Under the pieces are notes generated by a model. That model saw only the letters and a program-made list of their open reading frames with translations. It made no database searches and was not told the DNA's origin. This document shows positions 109-25,501 of a stretch of DNA of 25,501 nt, one piece after another. The position numbers were made by a program, and so were the translations under genes. Each line of letters starts with the position of its first letter. Within the stretch, counting starts at the first letter, position 1. Origin of the DNA: a virus; the IMG/VR virus record IMGVR_UViG_3300021519_000066, positions 1-25,501 of that record, one strand, 5' to 3'.

Positions 109-1008
109 GTGCTAACTTTAAAGGACTATCAGGTGCGCCATAATTATTTAAACAACAAAGATATATTAAAAGAAATTCACAAAAGTAAAACAACATATTG
201 TTGTTACCCAAACCCCGCAGATGCAGACTATGATATGATACTGTTGGACGCGGGGAAAATTAACAAAAAGAACTTGTTAGAAGGCCGAAAAGTTCGTGCA
301 GAACGACTAGCAAAGCTGGCGCACGAAGCTGCGGCTGTTGATGGCGTTAAACGCAAATTAGATGAATTTGAAGTAAAACTTAAAGATGTAAGCGCATCAG
401 ATGTTGTTTTCCGAATCATGACATGGGACCATATTCCTGTTGACGATGTTAAATCCCGAAAAGCCGCAGTAAAACTTCTTGAAGAAGAAGGTGCACCGCA
501 CAGTGAATATGACGATGATGCAGATGTTGATATTTCTGGTAGTACCAAGTATGTCAAATGTAATTTTCCACCATTTTATCATTATAGAGTCGATGACAAT
601 AACGTTCCTGTTATAGTGGGCAAAAGTCACTGGAAGGGCGATTTAGAAACTGGCTCTTTTTCTAGAGAGCACGGAAAAATGACTAATAAGCTGGCTCACA
701 TGTTTATTAAGCTATGCGAACGATATGCTACTCGTTCCAATTGGCGCGGATACACTTACAACGATGAGATGCGTAGCCAAGCCTTGCTACAGTTAAGTCA
801 AATTGGGTTGCAATTCGATGAATCAAAATCACAAAATCCTTTTGCGTATTATACTGCGGCTATCACTAATAGCTTTACTCGTGTTCTTAATATTGAAAAG
901 CGTAATCAAAATCTAAGAGATGATATTTTAGAAATGAATAACCTAACGCCAAGTTACACACGACAAGGACAAAAAATATCAACCAGCAGTGATGGTGGTT
1001 ATGAGTAA
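109..1008 (+). CDS. 55: Late-transcription sigma factor, gp55-like, with large internal insertion
   Basis: This is a phage sigma factor that would direct host RNA polymerase to late promoters (T4 gp55 family, a minimal sigma70 region-2 relative). The N-terminal segment around YLNNKDILKEIHKSK (residues 13-27) and the C-terminal block from MTNKLAHMFIKLCERY (191 on) through DEMRSQ, FDESKSQNPFAYYT (about 236-249) and the basic NIEKRNQNLRDD are the family signature. T4 gp55 is 185 residues; this one is 299. The excess lies between the two conserved blocks (about 30-190), where a charged segment rich in Lys, Asp and Glu has no resemblance I recognise. The start used is GTG at 109; it keeps the conserved N-terminus but has no clear Shine-Dalgarno site. 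Identification is firm; the function of the insertion is unknown. Confidence 0.85.
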   Translation: MLTLKDYQVRHNYLNNKDILKEIHKSKTTYCCYPNPADADYDMILLDAGKINKKNLLEGRKVRAERLAKLAHEAAAVDGVKRKLDEFEVKLKDVSASDVVFRIMTWDHIPVDDVKSRKAAVKLLEEEGAPHSEYDDDADVDISGSTKYVKCNFPPFYHYRVDDNNVPVIVGKSHWKGDLETGSFSREHGKMTNKLAHMFIKLCERYATRSNWRGYTYNDEMRSQALLQLSQIGLQFDESKSQNPFAYYTAAITNSFTRVLNIEKRNQNLRDDILEMNNLTPSYTRQGQKISTSSDGGYE

Positions 1009-1050: not shown

Positions 1051-2067
1051 ATGACAAATCTCTTTAAGAAGGCTGCGGTCTTTACAGATATACATTTTGG
1101 GTTGAAATCAAATAGCACATTGCACAATGAAGATTGTTTGAACTTCGTTAAATGGGCAACTACAAAAGCCCGAGAAGAAGGATGCGAGACTGCTCTCTTT
1201 CTCGGCGACTGGCATAATAATAGAGCAAGCATTAACATCCTTACATTGGGATACAGCCTGCGGGCATTGGAGCATTTAAATGAAAACTTTGATCAAACAT
1301 ACTTCATTCCGGGTAACCACGATTTGTATTATCGCGACAAGCGTGATGTACAAAGTGTGGAGTGGGCAAAGCACTTATCTAATATCCATATTTGTAACGA
1401 TTGGACTACTTTCGGCGATGTGGTTATTGCTCCTTGGTTGGTTGGGGACGACCACAAAAAGTTAAAAAAGCTAAAAGGTAAGTATATGTTTGGGCACTTT
1501 GAATTGCCCGGGTATTTAATGAATGCCATGGTTGCTATGCCGGACCATGGAGAGATCACGGGCAATGACATGCAAGGATTTGAGCATGTGTTTACAGGCC
1601 ACTTTCATAAACGTCAAACACAACGCAATGTAACATACATCGGCAATTGTTTCCCACATAACTATGCAGACGCAGGGGATGACGATCGCGGACTTACTAT
1701 TTTAGAATGGGATAAAGAACCTGTATATCATTCTTGGCCCGATCAACCAATGTATCGTGTATTCCAACTTAGCGATGTATTAAAGCACACAGAAGTTATG
1801 CTTAAACCCAATATGCATGTTAGAGTAAACTTGGACATTGATATCAGCTACGAAGAAGCTACTTTTGTCAAAGAAACGTTTATTGATACTTACAAACTTC
1901 GAGAGATAACACTAATACCTGCCAAGACGACAGAGCTAACAGATTATGAAATACAAGGTAACATAGATTTTAAGAGCGTGGATCAAATTGTGTTTAGTCA
2001 ACTGAGCACTATTGATAGTAATCAATATAACCCAAACTTGTTGTTAGACATATACAGGAATCTATAA
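1051..2067 (+). CDS. 47: Recombination endonuclease subunit gp47 (Mre11/SbcD-like)
   Basis: This is the nuclease subunit of the phage Mre11-Rad50-type complex, which with gp46 processes DNA ends for recombination-dependent replication. The calcineurin-like phosphoesterase metal-binding motifs are all present and in order: FTDIHFG (D13, H15), LGDWHNN (D53, H55), PGNHD (88-91), GHFE (148-151) and TGHFHKR (H184, H186). The length of 338 residues matches T4 gp47 (339). The gene sits immediately upstream of gp46, 9 bases away, as in other T4-like phages. The ATG at 1051 begins just before the conserved first strand, so the start is secure despite the missing ribosome-binding site. No motif residue looks mutated, so the enzyme should be active. 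Confidence 0.93.
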   Translation: MTNLFKKAAVFTDIHFGLKSNSTLHNEDCLNFVKWATTKAREEGCETALFLGDWHNNRASINILTLGYSLRALEHLNENFDQTYFIPGNHDLYYRDKRDVQSVEWAKHLSNIHICNDWTTFGDVVIAPWLVGDDHKKLKKLKGKYMFGHFELPGYLMNAMVAMPDHGEITGNDMQGFEHVFTGHFHKRQTQRNVTYIGNCFPHNYADAGDDDRGLTILEWDKEPVYHSWPDQPMYRVFQLSDVLKHTEVMLKPNMHVRVNLDIDISYEEATFVKETFIDTYKLREITLIPAKTTELTDYEIQGNIDFKSVDQIVFSQLSTIDSNQYNPNLLLDIYRNL

Positions 2068-2076: not shown

Positions 2077-3846
2077 ATGTTTAAAATAAAAGACTTAACC
2101 GTTCGTAACTTTATGAGTGTGGGTAATACTACCCAAGCAGTTAACTTTGACCGGCAGGACTTAACCCTTGTGCTAGGTGAAAACTTAGATCTAGGTGGGG
2201 ACGATTCTGGTGCCCGTAACGGCACAGGTAAAACTACTATCATTAACGCATTAAGCTATGCGTTATACGGCAATGCTCTAACTAACATTAAAAAAGATAA
2301 CTTAATTAATAAAACCAATACTAAAGGTATGATGGTTACTATTGATTTTGAAAAAGACGGGCAAAGCTATCGTATTGAACGTGGACGTAAACCCAACATA
2401 ATGAAGTTTTGGGTAGGCGATCAAGAAAAAGAAATTACCGATGATGCACAAGGTGACAGCAGAGAAACACAAGGTGACATAGAACGTATGTTGGGCATGA
2501 GTCACGATATGTTCAAGCACATTGTGGCACTAAACACCTATACAGAACCATTCCTGGCATTACGGGCAAATGATCAACGTACTATCATTGAGCAATTGCT
2601 TGGTATCACATTACTAAGCGAAAAAGCCGATAAACTTAAAGAACAGACAAAGGTAACCCGAGACTCTATAACGCAAGAAGAGTTCCGTATTAAGGCAGTT
2701 ACCGACGCAAATGTGCGTATTCAAGAGCAAATTGACGCCTTAAAACGCAGACAAACTCTGTGGACTACTAAGCATGCCGAAGAGATAACAAAGATTGAAA
2801 ATGCAACAGCGGAATTGCAAAAAATTGATATCATCAAAGAAATACAATTGCACAAAGAGCTTGCTGTGTGGGAACAATTGCGTAAAGATTTAAACGATCT
2901 TTCTAGCGCGACCAGCCGAGCAAAAATGGATTTGCAACGAGAAGAAAAAACTGTTTCAAAGTTAGTTGCTGAAATTACCACGCTAGAAAATCATCAGTGT
3001 CACACATGTGGCCAATCGTTCCACGACACCAAACACGAACAAGTACTAGATAGCAAGAAGACAGAATTAGAAACTGCTAGATCTGCTGCCAACGCACATT
3101 CAGAGTTGGTTGCAGAATTAATAAATGCCACTACATCGCTTGGTAAATTAGGGGCCAAGCCCGAAACGTTTTATACAAAAGAATCCGATGCCATTCACCA
3201 TCAAGCAAGCGTTGATAACTTGGTAGAACAGTTGGCATCTAAGATAGCAGAACAAGATCCATATGCCGAACAGATTGTTGAAATGCAAGAGCAAGGTGTC
3301 GAGGAGATCACATACGACACTATCAACGACCTTACAAATGTTAAAGAGCATCAAGAGTTCTTGCTTAAACTGTTAACAAACAAAGATTCATTTATACGTA
3401 AACGTATTATCGATCAAAACCTAAGCTATCTAAATGCACGACTTGGACAATACTTAGACCGCATTGGTTTGCCACATACTATTAAGTTTAATAACGACTT
3501 GACGGTAAGTATCACTGAGCTAGGCAGAGATTTAGACTTTGACAATTTAAGCAGAGGTGAACGAAATAGATTGATCCTATCGCTAAGTTGGAGTTTCCGT
3601 GATGTGTGGGAAAGTCTATATCAACCCATTAACTTATTGTTCATCGATGAGTTAATCGACTCAGGCCTCGATAGCTCAGGTGTTGAAAGTTCGTTGGCTA
3701 TCCTTAAGAAGATGTCGCGGGAGTCCAACAAATCAATTTGGCTAGTATCGCACAAGGATGAATTAATCGGTCGCGTGAACAATACCTTGCATGTTGTAAA
3801 AGAAAATGGCTACACTAGTTATAGTACCGATGTTGATATCACCTAA
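2077..3846 (+). CDS. 46: Recombination endonuclease subunit gp46 (Rad50/SbcC-like ATPase)
   Basis: This is the ATPase and DNA-tethering subunit that pairs with gp47. Domains in order: N-terminal ATPase lobe with Walker A GARNGTGKTT (K52); a long coiled coil with a zinc-hook CHTCGQ (C308, C311) at its tip; then the C-terminal lobe with the ABC signature LSRGERNRLILSLSW (about 491 on), Walker B NLLFIDELID (D524, E525) and the SHKDE switch near the end. The length of 589 residues is close to T4 gp46 (560). All catalytic motifs are intact. The last 41 bases overlap the annotated start of the following radical SAM gene, implying translational coupling of that gene to the recombination operon. Confidence 0.93.
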   Translation: MFKIKDLTVRNFMSVGNTTQAVNFDRQDLTLVLGENLDLGGDDSGARNGTGKTTIINALSYALYGNALTNIKKDNLINKTNTKGMMVTIDFEKDGQSYRIERGRKPNIMKFWVGDQEKEITDDAQGDSRETQGDIERMLGMSHDMFKHIVALNTYTEPFLALRANDQRTIIEQLLGITLLSEKADKLKEQTKVTRDSITQEEFRIKAVTDANVRIQEQIDALKRRQTLWTTKHAEEITKIENATAELQKIDIIKEIQLHKELAVWEQLRKDLNDLSSATSRAKMDLQREEKTVSKLVAEITTLENHQCHTCGQSFHDTKHEQVLDSKKTELETARSAANAHSELVAELINATTSLGKLGAKPETFYTKESDAIHHQASVDNLVEQLASKIAEQDPYAEQIVEMQEQGVEEITYDTINDLTNVKEHQEFLLKLLTNKDSFIRKRIIDQNLSYLNARLGQYLDRIGLPHTIKFNNDLTVSITELGRDLDFDNLSRGERNRLILSLSWSFRDVWESLYQPINLLFIDELIDSGLDSSGVESSLAILKKMSRESNKSIWLVSHKDELIGRVNNTLHVVKENGYTSYSTDVDIT

Positions 3847-4684
3847 GGTACTGCATGTGGAACCAACGGATGTTTGTCAATTGGCATGTCCTTTGTGTGC
3901 CCGTGAAACCGATCCAGCTTTCAATAAAGCACTTAAACATCATTTAACTGTTGAGCAGATTAAAGATAAGTTTAATGTAGAATTTATTCAACAGTTGGAT
4001 AAAATGTTTATGTGCGGTAATTATGGTGATCCGGCTGCTGGCGCACATACTGTGGATATATACAACTACTTTAGAAGTGTCAATCCCGCCATTACATTGG
4101 GTATGAATACCAATGGGAGTTTACAAACTAAACAATGGTGGACCCAACTTGGCAAACTACTCAATCAACCTAGAGACTATGTTGTATTCAGCATAGATGG
4201 ACTAGCGGATACCAATCACATATATCGTAAAAATAGCAATTGGGGTAAATTAATTGAAAATGTAACAGCATTCATTGATGCAGGTGGCCATGCTCACTGG
4301 GATATGCTAGTGTATGCACACAACCAACATCAAGTTGACCAATGTGCAGAATTTGCACATTCCTTGGGCTTTACTTGGTTCCGTGCCAAGGTTAGTAAAC
4401 GTCCGTATATTAACGGACTAGAGTTTCCCATTGGGTGGCAAGATCCCAAGCAGGAAGCGGGTCCAATACAATGTATTGCAGTACAAGAGCAAAGTACTTA
4501 TATAGATGCACAAGGCCGTGTCAGCCCTTGCTGTTGGTTGGGCAGTACCCAAACAGAATTTGTCACAATGGAACAAGTATCTGCAACATGGAACACCAAT
4601 CCGCATCCTGTGTGTCGTGCAACATGTTCCGGTACCAATAATAGCTTTACAAACCAATGGCAACGTGAGGTGCAATTATGTTAG
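3806..4684 (+). CDS. Radical SAM protein with C-terminal twitch/SPASM-like cysteines (first of pair)
   Basis: This should be a radical S-adenosylmethionine enzyme: CQLACPLC (C24, C28, C31) is the CX3CX2C motif that binds the 4Fe-4S cluster, and CGNYGDP (70-76) is a variant of the GGEP motif that contacts SAM. The C-terminal part has C223, IDAQGRVSPCCW (C242, C243) and CRATC (C270, C274), which fits an auxiliary cluster in a twitch or SPASM-like domain. The substrate is unknown; such domains often act on peptides, but no precursor peptide is visible nearby. The gene overlaps gp46 by 41 bases. A second in-frame ATG at 3830 (M9) is an equally possible start, and neither has a good ribosome-binding site. 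The next gene is a diverged relative, overlapping by 7 bases. Confidence 0.8.
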   Translation: MATLVIVPMLISPKVLHVEPTDVCQLACPLCARETDPAFNKALKHHLTVEQIKDKFNVEFIQQLDKMFMCGNYGDPAAGAHTVDIYNYFRSVNPAITLGMNTNGSLQTKQWWTQLGKLLNQPRDYVVFSIDGLADTNHIYRKNSNWGKLIENVTAFIDAGGHAHWDMLVYAHNQHQVDQCAEFAHSLGFTWFRAKVSKRPYINGLEFPIGWQDPKQEAGPIQCIAVQEQSTYIDAQGRVSPCCWLGSTQTEFVTMEQVSATWNTNPHPVCRATCSGTNNSFTNQWQREVQLC

Positions 4685-5688
4685 CCACGTGGCACTTTCA
4701 TATTGAAATTAGCAGTAAGTGTACGCTACGTTGTCCTAGGTGTGCTAGACAAGAAGTGCCAGACAGCCTGATAAACACTGAGTTAGACTTAGAATTTTTT
4801 CAACGCAACTTTACGCCAGAATTTATCAAAGCCAACGTAGAGAAAATTACATTCTGTGGTGACGATGGTGATCCTATATATGCACACGACTTAATTGCTG
4901 TGATACAATACATCAAAAGTATCAAGCCAGTTGAGATTGTTATTATTACAAACGGATCCCATAAAAAAGTATCCTGGTGGAAAGAGCTGGCGCAGACATT
5001 AACCAGCGTAGATAGCATACATTTTAGTGTTGATGGATTTAATAACCAAAGCAATAATTTATATCGTGTGAACAGCGACTACGATAGCATAATTAATGGT
5101 ATTGAAAGTGTACGCAAATATTCAACATGTCGCATGACATGGGCTGCTATTGCGTTTAAGTTTAACGAAGATCATTTAGCTGCCATGGAACAACAAGCAT
5201 TTAATTTAGGCATGGATGTTTTTCAAATTACCAAGTCTACCAAGTTTGGGAGTGTGTATCCAATATACGGAGTTGATGATCCTTTACAGCCAAGTACTAA
5301 ATTTGTGAGCAGTACACATAGATTTGAAAGAATTACAAAGAATTTGTCCAGAATAGCAAAAACCGTTAGGTTTAATGTTGCTAATGCTATATTATATAAC
5401 AAAGTAAAAGACAATAAAGAAATTATACCGTTGTGCGAAATTGGTAACAAAGGGTTGTATATTGATGCACGTGGTAGATTATTTCCGTGTTGTTGGGTTG
5501 CAAATAGATACAGTCACAACAATGAATGGCAGGAACTAGCAGAAAGGTTTAGTTTACAGACTCGCAATTTAGAAGAAGTACTCGGTGACCCGTTTTGGGA
5601 AACCGAACTTAAAACTTTTAGATGGCAAGAATGTAAAACAAAATGTAATACAACCGTTGTAAATCAAGAATACGCCACCACCTGGTAA
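4678..5688 (+). CDS. Radical SAM protein with C-terminal twitch/SPASM-like cysteines (second of pair)
   Basis: This is a second radical SAM enzyme, clearly related to the preceding one. CTLRCPRC (C15, C19, C22) is the cluster-binding motif and CGDDGDP (60-66) the SAM-contact variant. The C-terminal cysteines repeat the neighbour's layout: C253, IDARGRLFPCCW (C271, C272) and CKTKC (C319, C323). At 336 residues it is longer, mainly in the segment between the barrel and the C-terminal cluster. The ATG lies inside the end of the upstream gene and is preceded by GAGGTG at good spacing, so the two are probably translated together. The matched architectures suggest partners or sequential enzymes on one substrate, but that is inference. 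The substrate is unknown. Confidence 0.8.
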   Translation: MLATWHFHIEISSKCTLRCPRCARQEVPDSLINTELDLEFFQRNFTPEFIKANVEKITFCGDDGDPIYAHDLIAVIQYIKSIKPVEIVIITNGSHKKVSWWKELAQTLTSVDSIHFSVDGFNNQSNNLYRVNSDYDSIINGIESVRKYSTCRMTWAAIAFKFNEDHLAAMEQQAFNLGMDVFQITKSTKFGSVYPIYGVDDPLQPSTKFVSSTHRFERITKNLSRIAKTVRFNVANAILYNKVKDNKEIIPLCEIGNKGLYIDARGRLFPCCWVANRYSHNNEWQELAERFSLQTRNLEEVLGDPFWETELKTFRWQECKTKCNTTVVNQEYATTW

Positions 5689-5707: not shown

Positions 5708-6136
5708 ATGACATGGCTACACGAAAATATCTTAGTAGAAACTCTACCCGAAGACTGTATAGGTTTTGTATATTTGATTACAAATACTGTATCTGGTAGG
5801 AAATATGTTGGAAAAAAATTAGCAAAGTTTAGTAAAACGTCGTACAAGGTAGTAAAGTTAAAAAATGGTAACAAAAAGAAAAAGAAAATCCGAAGCAAAG
5901 TTGATTCGGATTGGCAATCATATTATGGCTCAAATTTAGAATTAAACAGTGACGTAGAAAAATTGGGTATTGACAAGTTTACACGTGAAATATTGTATTA
6001 CTGTAAAAGTAAGGCAGAGTGTAGTTACATTGAAGCAAGAGAACAATTTGAACGTAAAGTATTAGAAACTACAGATTATTATAACGGACAGATTTCTGTT
6101 CGTGTCCATGGCTCCCATATCATAAACAAGTTGTAA
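5708..6136 (+). CDS. GIY-YIG nuclease-fold protein, T4-like conserved type
   Basis: The N-terminal half carries a GIY-YIG-type core: GFVYLITN (FVY at 20-22) followed by GRKYVGKK (YVG at 33-35), then a very basic stretch (NGNKKKKK) and a C-terminal block ending in ECSYIEAREQFE, whose acidic residue could be the catalytic glutamate. At 142 residues it is a free-standing single-domain protein. It resembles a short GIY-YIG protein common in T4-like phages rather than I-TevI, since it lacks a DNA-binding linker and tail. Activity as a homing or DNA-processing nuclease is not shown. It is the last rightward gene before the structured non-coding region. A TAAATAGA element overlaps the end of the upstream gene. 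The start is ATG at 5708 with only a weak ribosome-binding site. Confidence 0.7.
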   Translation: MTWLHENILVETLPEDCIGFVYLITNTVSGRKYVGKKLAKFSKTSYKVVKLKNGNKKKKKIRSKVDSDWQSYYGSNLELNSDVEKLGIDKFTREILYYCKSKAECSYIEAREQFERKVLETTDYYNGQISVRVHGSHIINKL

Positions 6137-23250: not shown

Positions 23251-25501
23251 ATGGCCAATTTAACAAGAATACAGAATAACCAAATAACTGATAGTACCAT
23301 TCAAGCCGGGGCTAAACTGGCGGCCGGGTCTATTACAGGTAACTTACTTGCAACAGCGGTAACATTTAATAGTAACATTACTATTCTTGGAAATTTAACA
23401 GTATCGAATAGCTACACGCAATTAAATTCCATTAACACATATATTAATGATCCTATTGTTGTTTTTAATAATGGATACACTGGCTCTCCTAGTTACGATA
23501 TTGGTATTTTAGTAAACAGAAATTTAAGTTCGTTGGCACCGTACGGTGCAGTAAATGCCGCGTGGGTATGGAAAGAAGCAGACTCAGCATTTGAAGGCAT
23601 ACTGACCACTGAGACTGGTACTAGTGCCGGTGCAATTACTAATTCTGGATGGGCCAACGTAAAAGTTGGCAATATTACTGGAGTATCTTCTACGATAAAT
23701 GGTACTTCTTATGTAAGTGGTGCAACAACGTTGGCGTCAACATTGGGTGTTACTGGCGCAACTACTTTATCGTCGACACTGGGTGTTACTGGCGCAACTA
23801 CTTTAAGCACAGCAACAGCAGGTGGATTACAGGCACAAGCAATTGGTAACGTAGCTCCTGGATCGGCAGCATTTACAACGATTACTGCAAGTGGTACATT
23901 GGCTGTAACCGGTGCAACTACTTTAAGCACAGCAACAGCAGGCGGCTTACAAGCCCAAGCAATTGGTAACGTAGCTCCTGGTACTGGCGCATTTACAAGC
24001 GGCACATATAGCTCAACGTTGAGTATAACTGGCGCAACAACTTTAAGTACAGCAACAGCTGGCGCATTACAAGCCCAAGCAATTGGTAATGTAACACCTG
24101 GATCGGCAGCGTTTACAACAATTACTGCTTCTGGTACGTTAGGGGTAATTGGCGCAACAACTTTAAGTACAGCAACAGCCGGCGCATTACAAGCACAAGC
24201 CATTGGTAATGTAACACCAGGTACAGCCGCATTTACGACTGGTACATTTAGTTCAACAGTTGATGTTACTGGTGCAACAACATTAAGTACAGCAACAGCA
24301 GGTGGCCTACAGGCACAAGCAATTGGTAATGTAACACCTGGTACAGCCGCATTTACTACAGCAACAGCTGGCGCATTACAAGCCCAAGCAATTGGTAATG
24401 TAACACCGGGCGCCGGTAATTTTACAACAGTGGCAGTAACAAACTTTAGCACAGCCAATGCAGTTATCACAGGTGGTAGCGTAAATGGATCACCAATTGG
24501 TGCAAGTTCTGCAAGTTCTGGTGCATTTACAACTATTACTGCTTCCAGTACATTGGGGGTAACTGGCGCAACTACATTGACTACAGCCACAGCTGGCGGC
24601 CTGCAAGCCCAAGCTATTGGTAACGTAACACCTGGATCTGGTGCGTTTACAACTATTACTGCTTCCGGTACATTAGGTGTAACTGGAGCAACAACTCTTT
24701 CAACTGCTACAGCAGGTGGACTACAAGCCCAAGCAATTGGTAACGTAACGCCTGGCTCAGCCGCATTTACTACAGGTACATTCAGTTCAACACTTGGTGT
24801 AACTGGAGCAACAACTCTTTCAACAGCTACCGCAGGTGGACTACAAGCCCAAGCTATTGGTAACGTAACACCGGGCACTGGTAATTTTACAACTGTGGCA
24901 GTAACTAATTTTAGTACAGCCAACGCAGTTATCACTGGTGGTAGTGTTAATGGATCACCAATTGGTGCAAGTTCTGCAAACTCTGGTGCATTTACAACAA
25001 TCACAGCAAGTAGTACATTGGGGGTAACTGGCGCAACAACTTTAAGTACAGCAACAGCTGGCGCATTACAAGCCCAAGCAATTGGTAACGTAGCTCCTGG
25101 TACAGCCGCATTTACTACAGGTACATTTAGTTCAACACTTGGTGTAACTGGTGCAACAACTTTAAGTACAGCAACAGCTGGCGCATTACAAGCACAGGCC
25201 ATTGGTAATGTGACACCGGGCACTGGTAATTTTACAACATTGGTTGCAACAAACTTTAGCTCAGGTAATGCAGTTATCACAGGCGGTAGTGTTAATGGAT
25301 CACCGATTGGTGCAAGTTCTACAAGCACTGGTGCATTTACCACATTAACAGCAAGTGGCGCAACTACTTTAACTAATGCAACAGCCGCTACCACAGCCGG
25401 CACAGGCGCATTGGTAGTATCGGGTGGTATTGGAGTTGCAAAAGATTCATTCTTTGGCGCCAACGTAACAATTTATGGTAACTTAGCAGTATCTGGACAA
25501 A
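23251..25501 (+). CDS. Repeat-rich fibre protein, truncated by the window edge (at least 750 residues)
   Basis: This frame is open from ATG 23251 to the window end with no stop, and AGGAG lies 11 bases upstream. Residues 1-155 hold the shaft module (ILGNLTVSNSYTQLNSINTY, NDPIVVFNNGYTG, YDIGILVNRN). From residue 157 the protein becomes a repeat array of 40-residue units starting GATTLSTATAGGLQAQAIGN, then VAPG or VTPG and AAFTT. At least seven exact-length units and three longer composites occur. It then reads GTGALVVSGGIGVAKDSFFG, typical of phage fibre shafts, and continues past the edge. The array probably makes a long trimeric beta shaft. Length beyond the window and the tip domain are unknown. 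Confidence 0.75.
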   Translation, partial: MANLTRIQNNQITDSTIQAGAKLAAGSITGNLLATAVTFNSNITILGNLTVSNSYTQLNSINTYINDPIVVFNNGYTGSPSYDIGILVNRNLSSLAPYGAVNAAWVWKEADSAFEGILTTETGTSAGAITNSGWANVKVGNITGVSSTINGTSYVSGATTLASTLGVTGATTLSSTLGVTGATTLSTATAGGLQAQAIGNVAPGSAAFTTITASGTLAVTGATTLSTATAGGLQAQAIGNVAPGTGAFTSGTYSSTLSITGATTLSTATAGALQAQAIGNVTPGSAAFTTITASGTLGVIGATTLSTATAGALQAQAIGNVTPGTAAFTTGTFSSTVDVTGATTLSTATAGGLQAQAIGNVTPGTAAFTTATAGALQAQAIGNVTPGAGNFTTVAVTNFSTANAVITGGSVNGSPIGASSASSGAFTTITASSTLGVTGATTLTTATAGGLQAQAIGNVTPGSGAFTTITASGTLGVTGATTLSTATAGGLQAQAIGNVTPGSAAFTTGTFSSTLGVTGATTLSTATAGGLQAQAIGNVTPGTGNFTTVAVTNFSTANAVITGGSVNGSPIGASSANSGAFTTITASSTLGVTGATTLSTATAGALQAQAIGNVAPGTAAFTTGTFSSTLGVTGATTLSTATAGALQAQAIGNVTPGTGNFTTLVATNFSSGNAVITGGSVNGSPIGASSTSTGAFTTLTASGATTLTNATAATTAGTGALVVSGGIGVAKDSFFGANVTIYGNLAVSGQ
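23719..25356 (+). repeat. Tandem 120-bp (40-codon) repeat array inside the fibre gene
   Basis: Two short 12-codon units start at 23719 and 23755. Full 120-base units start at 23791, 23911, 24031, 24151, 24565, 24685 and 25030. Longer composites start at 24271, 24805 and 25150, each carrying an extra NFSTANAVITGGSVNGSPIG-type insert. All lengths are multiples of three, so the reading frame is kept. Copies differ mostly at third codon positions and at a few variable residues near the end of each unit, which implies duplication followed by drift under protein-level selection. Confidence 0.9.

Follow-up and report, generated by a model that had tools for sequence, protein, structure and literature searches.

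The two adjacent radical SAM genes described here (A and B) are very probably separable accessory genes rather than a fixed pair, judging from gene content and gene remnants in related phages. They occupy a slot bordered by gp46 and a SegE-like GIY-YIG gene, and the contents of this slot vary among close relatives. The window, by which we mean the whole 25,501-nucleotide stretch analysed (IMG/VR record IMGVR_UViG_3300021519_000066), derives from an aquatic, PA5oct-like jumbo phage. The portal protein and gp46 are nearest to those of PA5oct jumbo phages and of Sinorhizobium phage Phosso (about 50%). A near relative is represented by a 374-kb contig with a major capsid protein that is 95% identical; this contig has the A and B pair and 12 radical SAM matches.

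The two genes and their surroundings

The following features of the window are relevant to the analysis:

109-1008, plus strand: gp55-like late sigma factor (PHROG 12791, E 1.6e-78)
1051-2067, plus strand: gp47, SbcD-like nuclease subunit (PHROG 100, E 2.6e-55)
2077-3846, plus strand: gp46, SbcC-like, left border of the slot (PHROG 77, E 7.6e-102; best cultured match PA5oct group, 51%)
3806-4684, plus strand: radical SAM gene A, 292 aa (Pfam Radical_SAM, 39.6 bits)
3875-3898, plus strand: CX3CX2C motif of A for the SAM-binding 4Fe-4S cluster (C24, C28, C31), invariant in 28 relatives
4013-4033, plus strand: CGNYGDP motif of A (C70), invariant in relatives
4472-4627, plus strand: C-terminal cysteine region of A (C223, PCCW C242/C243, C270/C274), cysteines invariant, weak SPASM match
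4678-5688, plus strand: radical SAM gene B, 336 aa (Pfam Radical_SAM, 38 bits)
4720-4743, plus strand: CX3CX2C motif of B (C15, C19, C22), invariant in 37 relatives
4855-4875, plus strand: CGDDGDP motif of B (C60), with C60, G61, D63, G64, D65 and P66 invariant and D62 nearly so
5434-5646, plus strand: C-terminal cysteine region of B (C253, PCCW C271/C272, C319/C323), cysteines invariant
5708-6136, plus strand: SegE-like GIY-YIG gene, right border of the slot (Pfam SegE_GIY-YIG, E 2e-31)

An earlier note on this DNA had described two adjacent, overlapping radical SAM reading frames behind gp47 and gp46, with a common cysteine plan (CX3CX2C, CG..GDP, Cys, PCCW, CX3C). This description was borne out in full. 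Both frames score above the Pfam PF04055 Radical_SAM cut-off of 29.5 bits, A overlaps gp46, B overlaps A by 7 nt, and the cysteines are arranged exactly as claimed. The true start of A is probably the ATG at 3830 rather than that at 3806, because residues 1-9 of the structure model are of low confidence and the A frame of the closest relative (L217) opens at that codon. With this start, the overlap between A and the gp46 stop is 17 nt.

Each enzyme has nine cysteines that do not vary among its relatives (28 for A and 37 for B). Five of these are C-terminal, following the barrel, and may provide for one further 4Fe-4S cluster; in A they are probably the ligands of one auxiliary cluster. The SPASM domain (Pfam PF13186) was found only below threshold in A and B (16 and 16.2 bits, with a cut-off of 21.5). 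The dN/dS values of 0.09-0.11 for A and 0.05-0.06 for B are near that of gp46 and indicate purifying selection.

The relationship between A and B that the earlier note had supposed is real, as the two are homologous over nearly the whole cysteine plan; hhalign gave a probability of 99.9 across 233 columns that extend from the N-terminal cysteines to PCCW. A and B are old paralogs. They share about 30% identity and form separate deep groups, and a recent tandem duplication was rejected for these reasons. The best tree places A with other phage radical SAM proteins, and a single clade of A and B was not rejected by the AU test (p 0.54).

Neither gene belongs to the T4 core, as had been proposed, and both are also absent from the nearest cultured relative, PA5oct (Arenbergviridae, Wroclawvirus). 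The PA5oct group provides the best cultured match for gp46 and for the portal (50%), shares the gp55-gp47-gp46 order and has a baseplate hub gene nearby. Unlike the phage studied here, PA5oct has neither a radical SAM gene nor SegE at the corresponding place, and no radical SAM genes were found in its entire genome. A scan of bacterial and archaeal genomes with B, using degenerate patterns, matched only two records, and a plasmid search gave no match. Within the range of that one scan, the A/B family appears so far to be essentially confined to phages. One of the two records (L162) is a phage-like contig with a relative of B (47%) that was binned in a 'Pacearchaeota' MAG and looks mis-binned.

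Some minor features of the window were recorded. The SegE-like gene has a further match, to PHROG 447, whose label of NAD synthetase seems to be a misnomer. A lineage-specific promoter ahead of SegE (GATAACTAC) was considered and rejected, as it shows no enrichment in the window. A long, repetitive ORF on the minus strand (23709-25463, 584 aa) probably lies antisense to a repetitive structural gene that runs past the window end.

Contents of the slot between gp46 and the SegE-like gene

Searches based on A or on B returned about 200 loci each, with both genes in most and one in many. Because these samples had been selected by A or B, a second sample was drawn by gp46. It comprises the 80 closest gp46 matches and is thus not random; 72 of its loci show both borders of the slot. 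Among these 72, some slots contain both A and B, some only one of the two, some a different radical SAM gene and some no gene at all. A B-type gene is in places accompanied by an N-twitch radical SAM gene, and other slots include a radical SAM gene of the B12 type in combination. No fewer than three radical SAM types occur at this position (A/B type, N-twitch and B12 type). The slot is without a gene in 22 of the 72 loci (about a third), the smallest gap being 47 bp. In one slot an SGNH-like gene (family called by eye) replaces the radical SAM gene.

Both A and B were counted in 13 loci, A only in 13, B only in 21 and neither in 25 (n = 72; odds ratio 1.19, p 0.81), the loci being related and hence not independent. 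After dereplication at 97% gp46 identity the odds ratio was 0.98 (p 1.0). Two loci scored as having neither gene (L256 and L257) hold B, and a recount by hand gave 13, 13, 23 and 23 in the same order, with an odds ratio of 1. The slot measures about 0.9 kb where it holds A only and about 1.0 kb where it holds B only, which corresponds to the enzyme gene and nothing more. No B ortholog was found elsewhere in 12 A-only contigs (up to 135 kb), and no A ortholog in 12 B-only contigs (up to 331 kb), some of these contigs being fragments. The remaining matches in these contigs are distant paralogs (25-38% identity).

The suggestion that A and B act as a pair is therefore not sustained: each is found alone among close relatives as well as in long contigs, with co-occurrence at the level of chance. 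The earlier note would have given up the pair if each enzyme proved to be widespread alone with a known function; wide occurrence alone was found, and a known function was not.

Remnants of the missing gene are preserved in the two nearest relatives, each of which is without one of the two genes. In L218, the last four codons and stop of A (GTG CAG TTA TGT TAG) remain directly before B. In L217, the last codon and stop of B (TGGTAAATAG) remain after A. Therefore, the presence of both genes is the older state in this group, and either gene can be lost. In other B-only loci, the ATG of B overlaps the gp46 stop.

Radical SAM genes were identified in 48 of 50 non-empty slots between gp46 and SegE, 18 of 47 between gp47 and gp46, and 2 of 18 between gp55 and gp47; as copies passed on by descent are counted too, the number of independent insertions is lower. 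In one relative (L120, 1426-3869), an AMP-ligase-like gene and, after it, a tricarboxylate-receptor-like gene (the latter identified by eye) lie between gp47 and gp46. A functional tie to recombination is not supported; the slot is an insertion site that about a third of relatives leave empty.

Structure, family matches and candidate substrates

AlphaFold2 models of A and B (pLDDT 84 and 87) contain the radical SAM partial barrel fold and match solved radical SAM enzymes with a Foldseek probability of 1.00. The nearest solved folds are BlsE, MoaA, SPASM enzymes and viperin, with BlsE at the top for A and viperins at the top for B. The barrel is shared with BlsE, MoaA, SpeY/BtrN and viperin, but identity to these proteins is 13-19% and the structural similarity (TM about 0.5-0.6) is that of any radical SAM barrel. 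When compared with the sequences of solved structures, A had no match to any chain and B had a weak match to viperin alone.

All curated families score A and B far below cut-off. For NF033640 (N_Twi_rSAM), A reached 51.3 bits against a cut-off of 170, and the family was not among the 25 matches listed for B. Other radical SAM genes of these phages score above this cut-off, but members of NF033640 have the twitch part ahead of the barrel, whereas in A and B it comes after. The BlsE family (TIGR04466) was not among the 15 profile matches of A at E <= 1, and BlsE is thus a fold match only. A and B each represent an uncharacterised subfamily in which the active-site plan is invariant.

Because no small gene accompanies the enzymes (which argues against a RiPP system), the folds are generic barrels and the curated families fall below cut-off, we tentatively favour the explanation that A and B are two independent accessory enzymes that tailor small molecules or glycans. 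The weak step is the substrate class: a small molecule or glycan is a plausible candidate, proposed with some doubt. Each enzyme would be translated by coupling to gp46, and each has a predicted auxiliary second iron-sulfur cluster of the 'twitch' type. Cleavage of SAM would yield a 5'-deoxyadenosyl radical, and each enzyme alone would carry out C-H activation (dehydrogenation, epimerisation, decarboxylation or similar). The substrate may be a sugar, polyol, amino sugar or nucleoside supplied by the wider biosynthetic genes of the phage. A point against this explanation is that A and B are located in the recombination-gene region, outside biosynthetic arrays.

It is unlikely that A and B are instead peptide or protein maturases, either RiPP-like or modifying a phage or host protein. 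Their C-terminal cysteines are patterned like those of SPASM/twitch enzymes, a group with many peptide-modifying members, and SuiB, SkfB and anSME are among the fold matches. However, every RiPP-maturase model falls far short of its cut-off and a precursor gene accompanies neither A nor B; a large protein of host or phage may yet be a target. The earlier note had likewise seen no precursor peptide, and the A-only and B-only slots agree with it: cassettes that hold just the enzyme gene argue against a precursor peptide travelling with it. A RiPP system was rejected for this reason.

Modification of nucleotides or DNA bases, either to make a chain-terminating nucleotide as viperin does or as a step in DNA hypermodification, is quite improbable. 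It would fit the location in a recombination and replication region, the viperin folds and weak pVip (residues 10-128) and viperin profile matches of B, and the fold match of A to BlsE, an enzyme that acts on a cytosine nucleoside. However, the viperin matches are limited to the barrel core (NF038283, 34.9 bits against a cut-off of 180, residues 11-163 only), and the five invariant C-terminal cysteines of B set it apart from viperin, which is not known to have an auxiliary cluster. The position of A and B in the recombination region is explained by the insertion slot found there. As the matches are partial and below cut-off, identity as viperin or pVip was rejected.

That A and B work on one substrate as an obligate two-enzyme unit or heterodimer is very improbable. 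The overlap of the genes, their fixed A-B order, and the homology and strong conservation of both speak for it, but it was rejected because of the independent occurrence of A and B, the footprints of single losses in the nearest relatives and the absence of the partner elsewhere in long contigs. The overlapping A-B order is common when both genes are present and may reflect some cooperation. That A and B are selfish or neutral cargo of small benefit to the phage, spread by the GIY-YIG endonuclease whose gene borders the slot, is hardly credible, given the strong purifying selection on both genes and the selectivity of the slot, which favours radical SAM genes. A homing endonuclease as the mover was rejected because SegE persists beside empty slots and is widespread, being common in T4-like cyanophages.

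Radical SAM and Fe-S genes elsewhere in related genomes

Whole-record searches of the five longest A/B-bearing contigs of one set (228-337 kb) gave 12-17 radical SAM matches per record. Contigs chosen by capsid gave 0-12, with A and B in only two of the seven. Radical SAM genes elsewhere in related genomes adjoin genes for carbamoyltransferase, amidinotransferase-like, DegT aminotransferase, NDP-sugar epimerase and SGNH proteins, which counts in favour of tailoring of small molecules or glycans. Islands of about 20 kb in three contigs (L202, L211 and L216) combine several N-twitch radical SAM genes with a carbamoyltransferase (Pfam-supported), an amidinotransferase-like protein (recognised by eye, with no Pfam match) and SGNH-like proteins.

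Similar radical SAM arrays occur in the cultured phages CP220 and Mosig, which speaks for the same explanation. The Campylobacter phages CP220 and CPt10 are myoviruses with 11-12 radical SAM genes (PMC2853527), of which CP220 has 11. They resemble the phages studied here in having many such genes, tandem overlapping pairs and an exchangeable cluster with an amidinotransferase, and CP220 has profile matches to A and B. They differ in that identity is only 22-24%, the genes do not lie in a gp46-SegE slot and the phage lineage is another one. A 183-kb marine T4-like genome, TARA_ERS488813_N000010, is described in the accessible part of its report as encoding 12 radical SAM genes and Fe-S assembly genes, and other marine virus genomes as also encoding IscU/ATC (PMC5332604). 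The likeness to our phages is by description, and that part of the report contains no account of A, B or the slot. Radical-SAM-rich phages are thus already known from CP220 and from this T4-like virus (PMC5332604). For A and B, the presence, absence and single-gene states in close relatives offer ready-made comparisons for finding the product.

A broader proposal is that these jumbo phages run their own radical SAM-based secondary metabolism, with a modified glycan, nucleotide or natural product as the joint output and the slot between gp46 and SegE as a place for swapping alternative radical SAM steps. This is doubtful, and is based on a toolkit of up to 17 radical SAM enzymes, IscU/IscA, carbamoyltransferase- and amidinotransferase-like enzymes and, in some, MTAN and APRT. 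MTAN-like (phosphorylase-superfamily) and APRT-like (phosphoribosyltransferase) genes lie near the slot in some relatives (L120, 7947-8489; L070, 7394-7915), and such genes could recycle 5'-deoxyadenosine. MTAN/APRT as a constant partner was rejected, as the MTAN family is present in only 7 of 24 contigs.

Neither IscU nor IscA was found in PA5oct, Phosso, CP220 or Mosig. Among 23 records, IscU was identified in eight and an IscA-type gene in nine; five of the six longest A/B-bearing records are among them. Examples of phage genes for IscU/IscA-type Fe-S assembly are those at 112394-112762 of G003 and 2880-3266 of L198, the latter adjoining a radical SAM gene.
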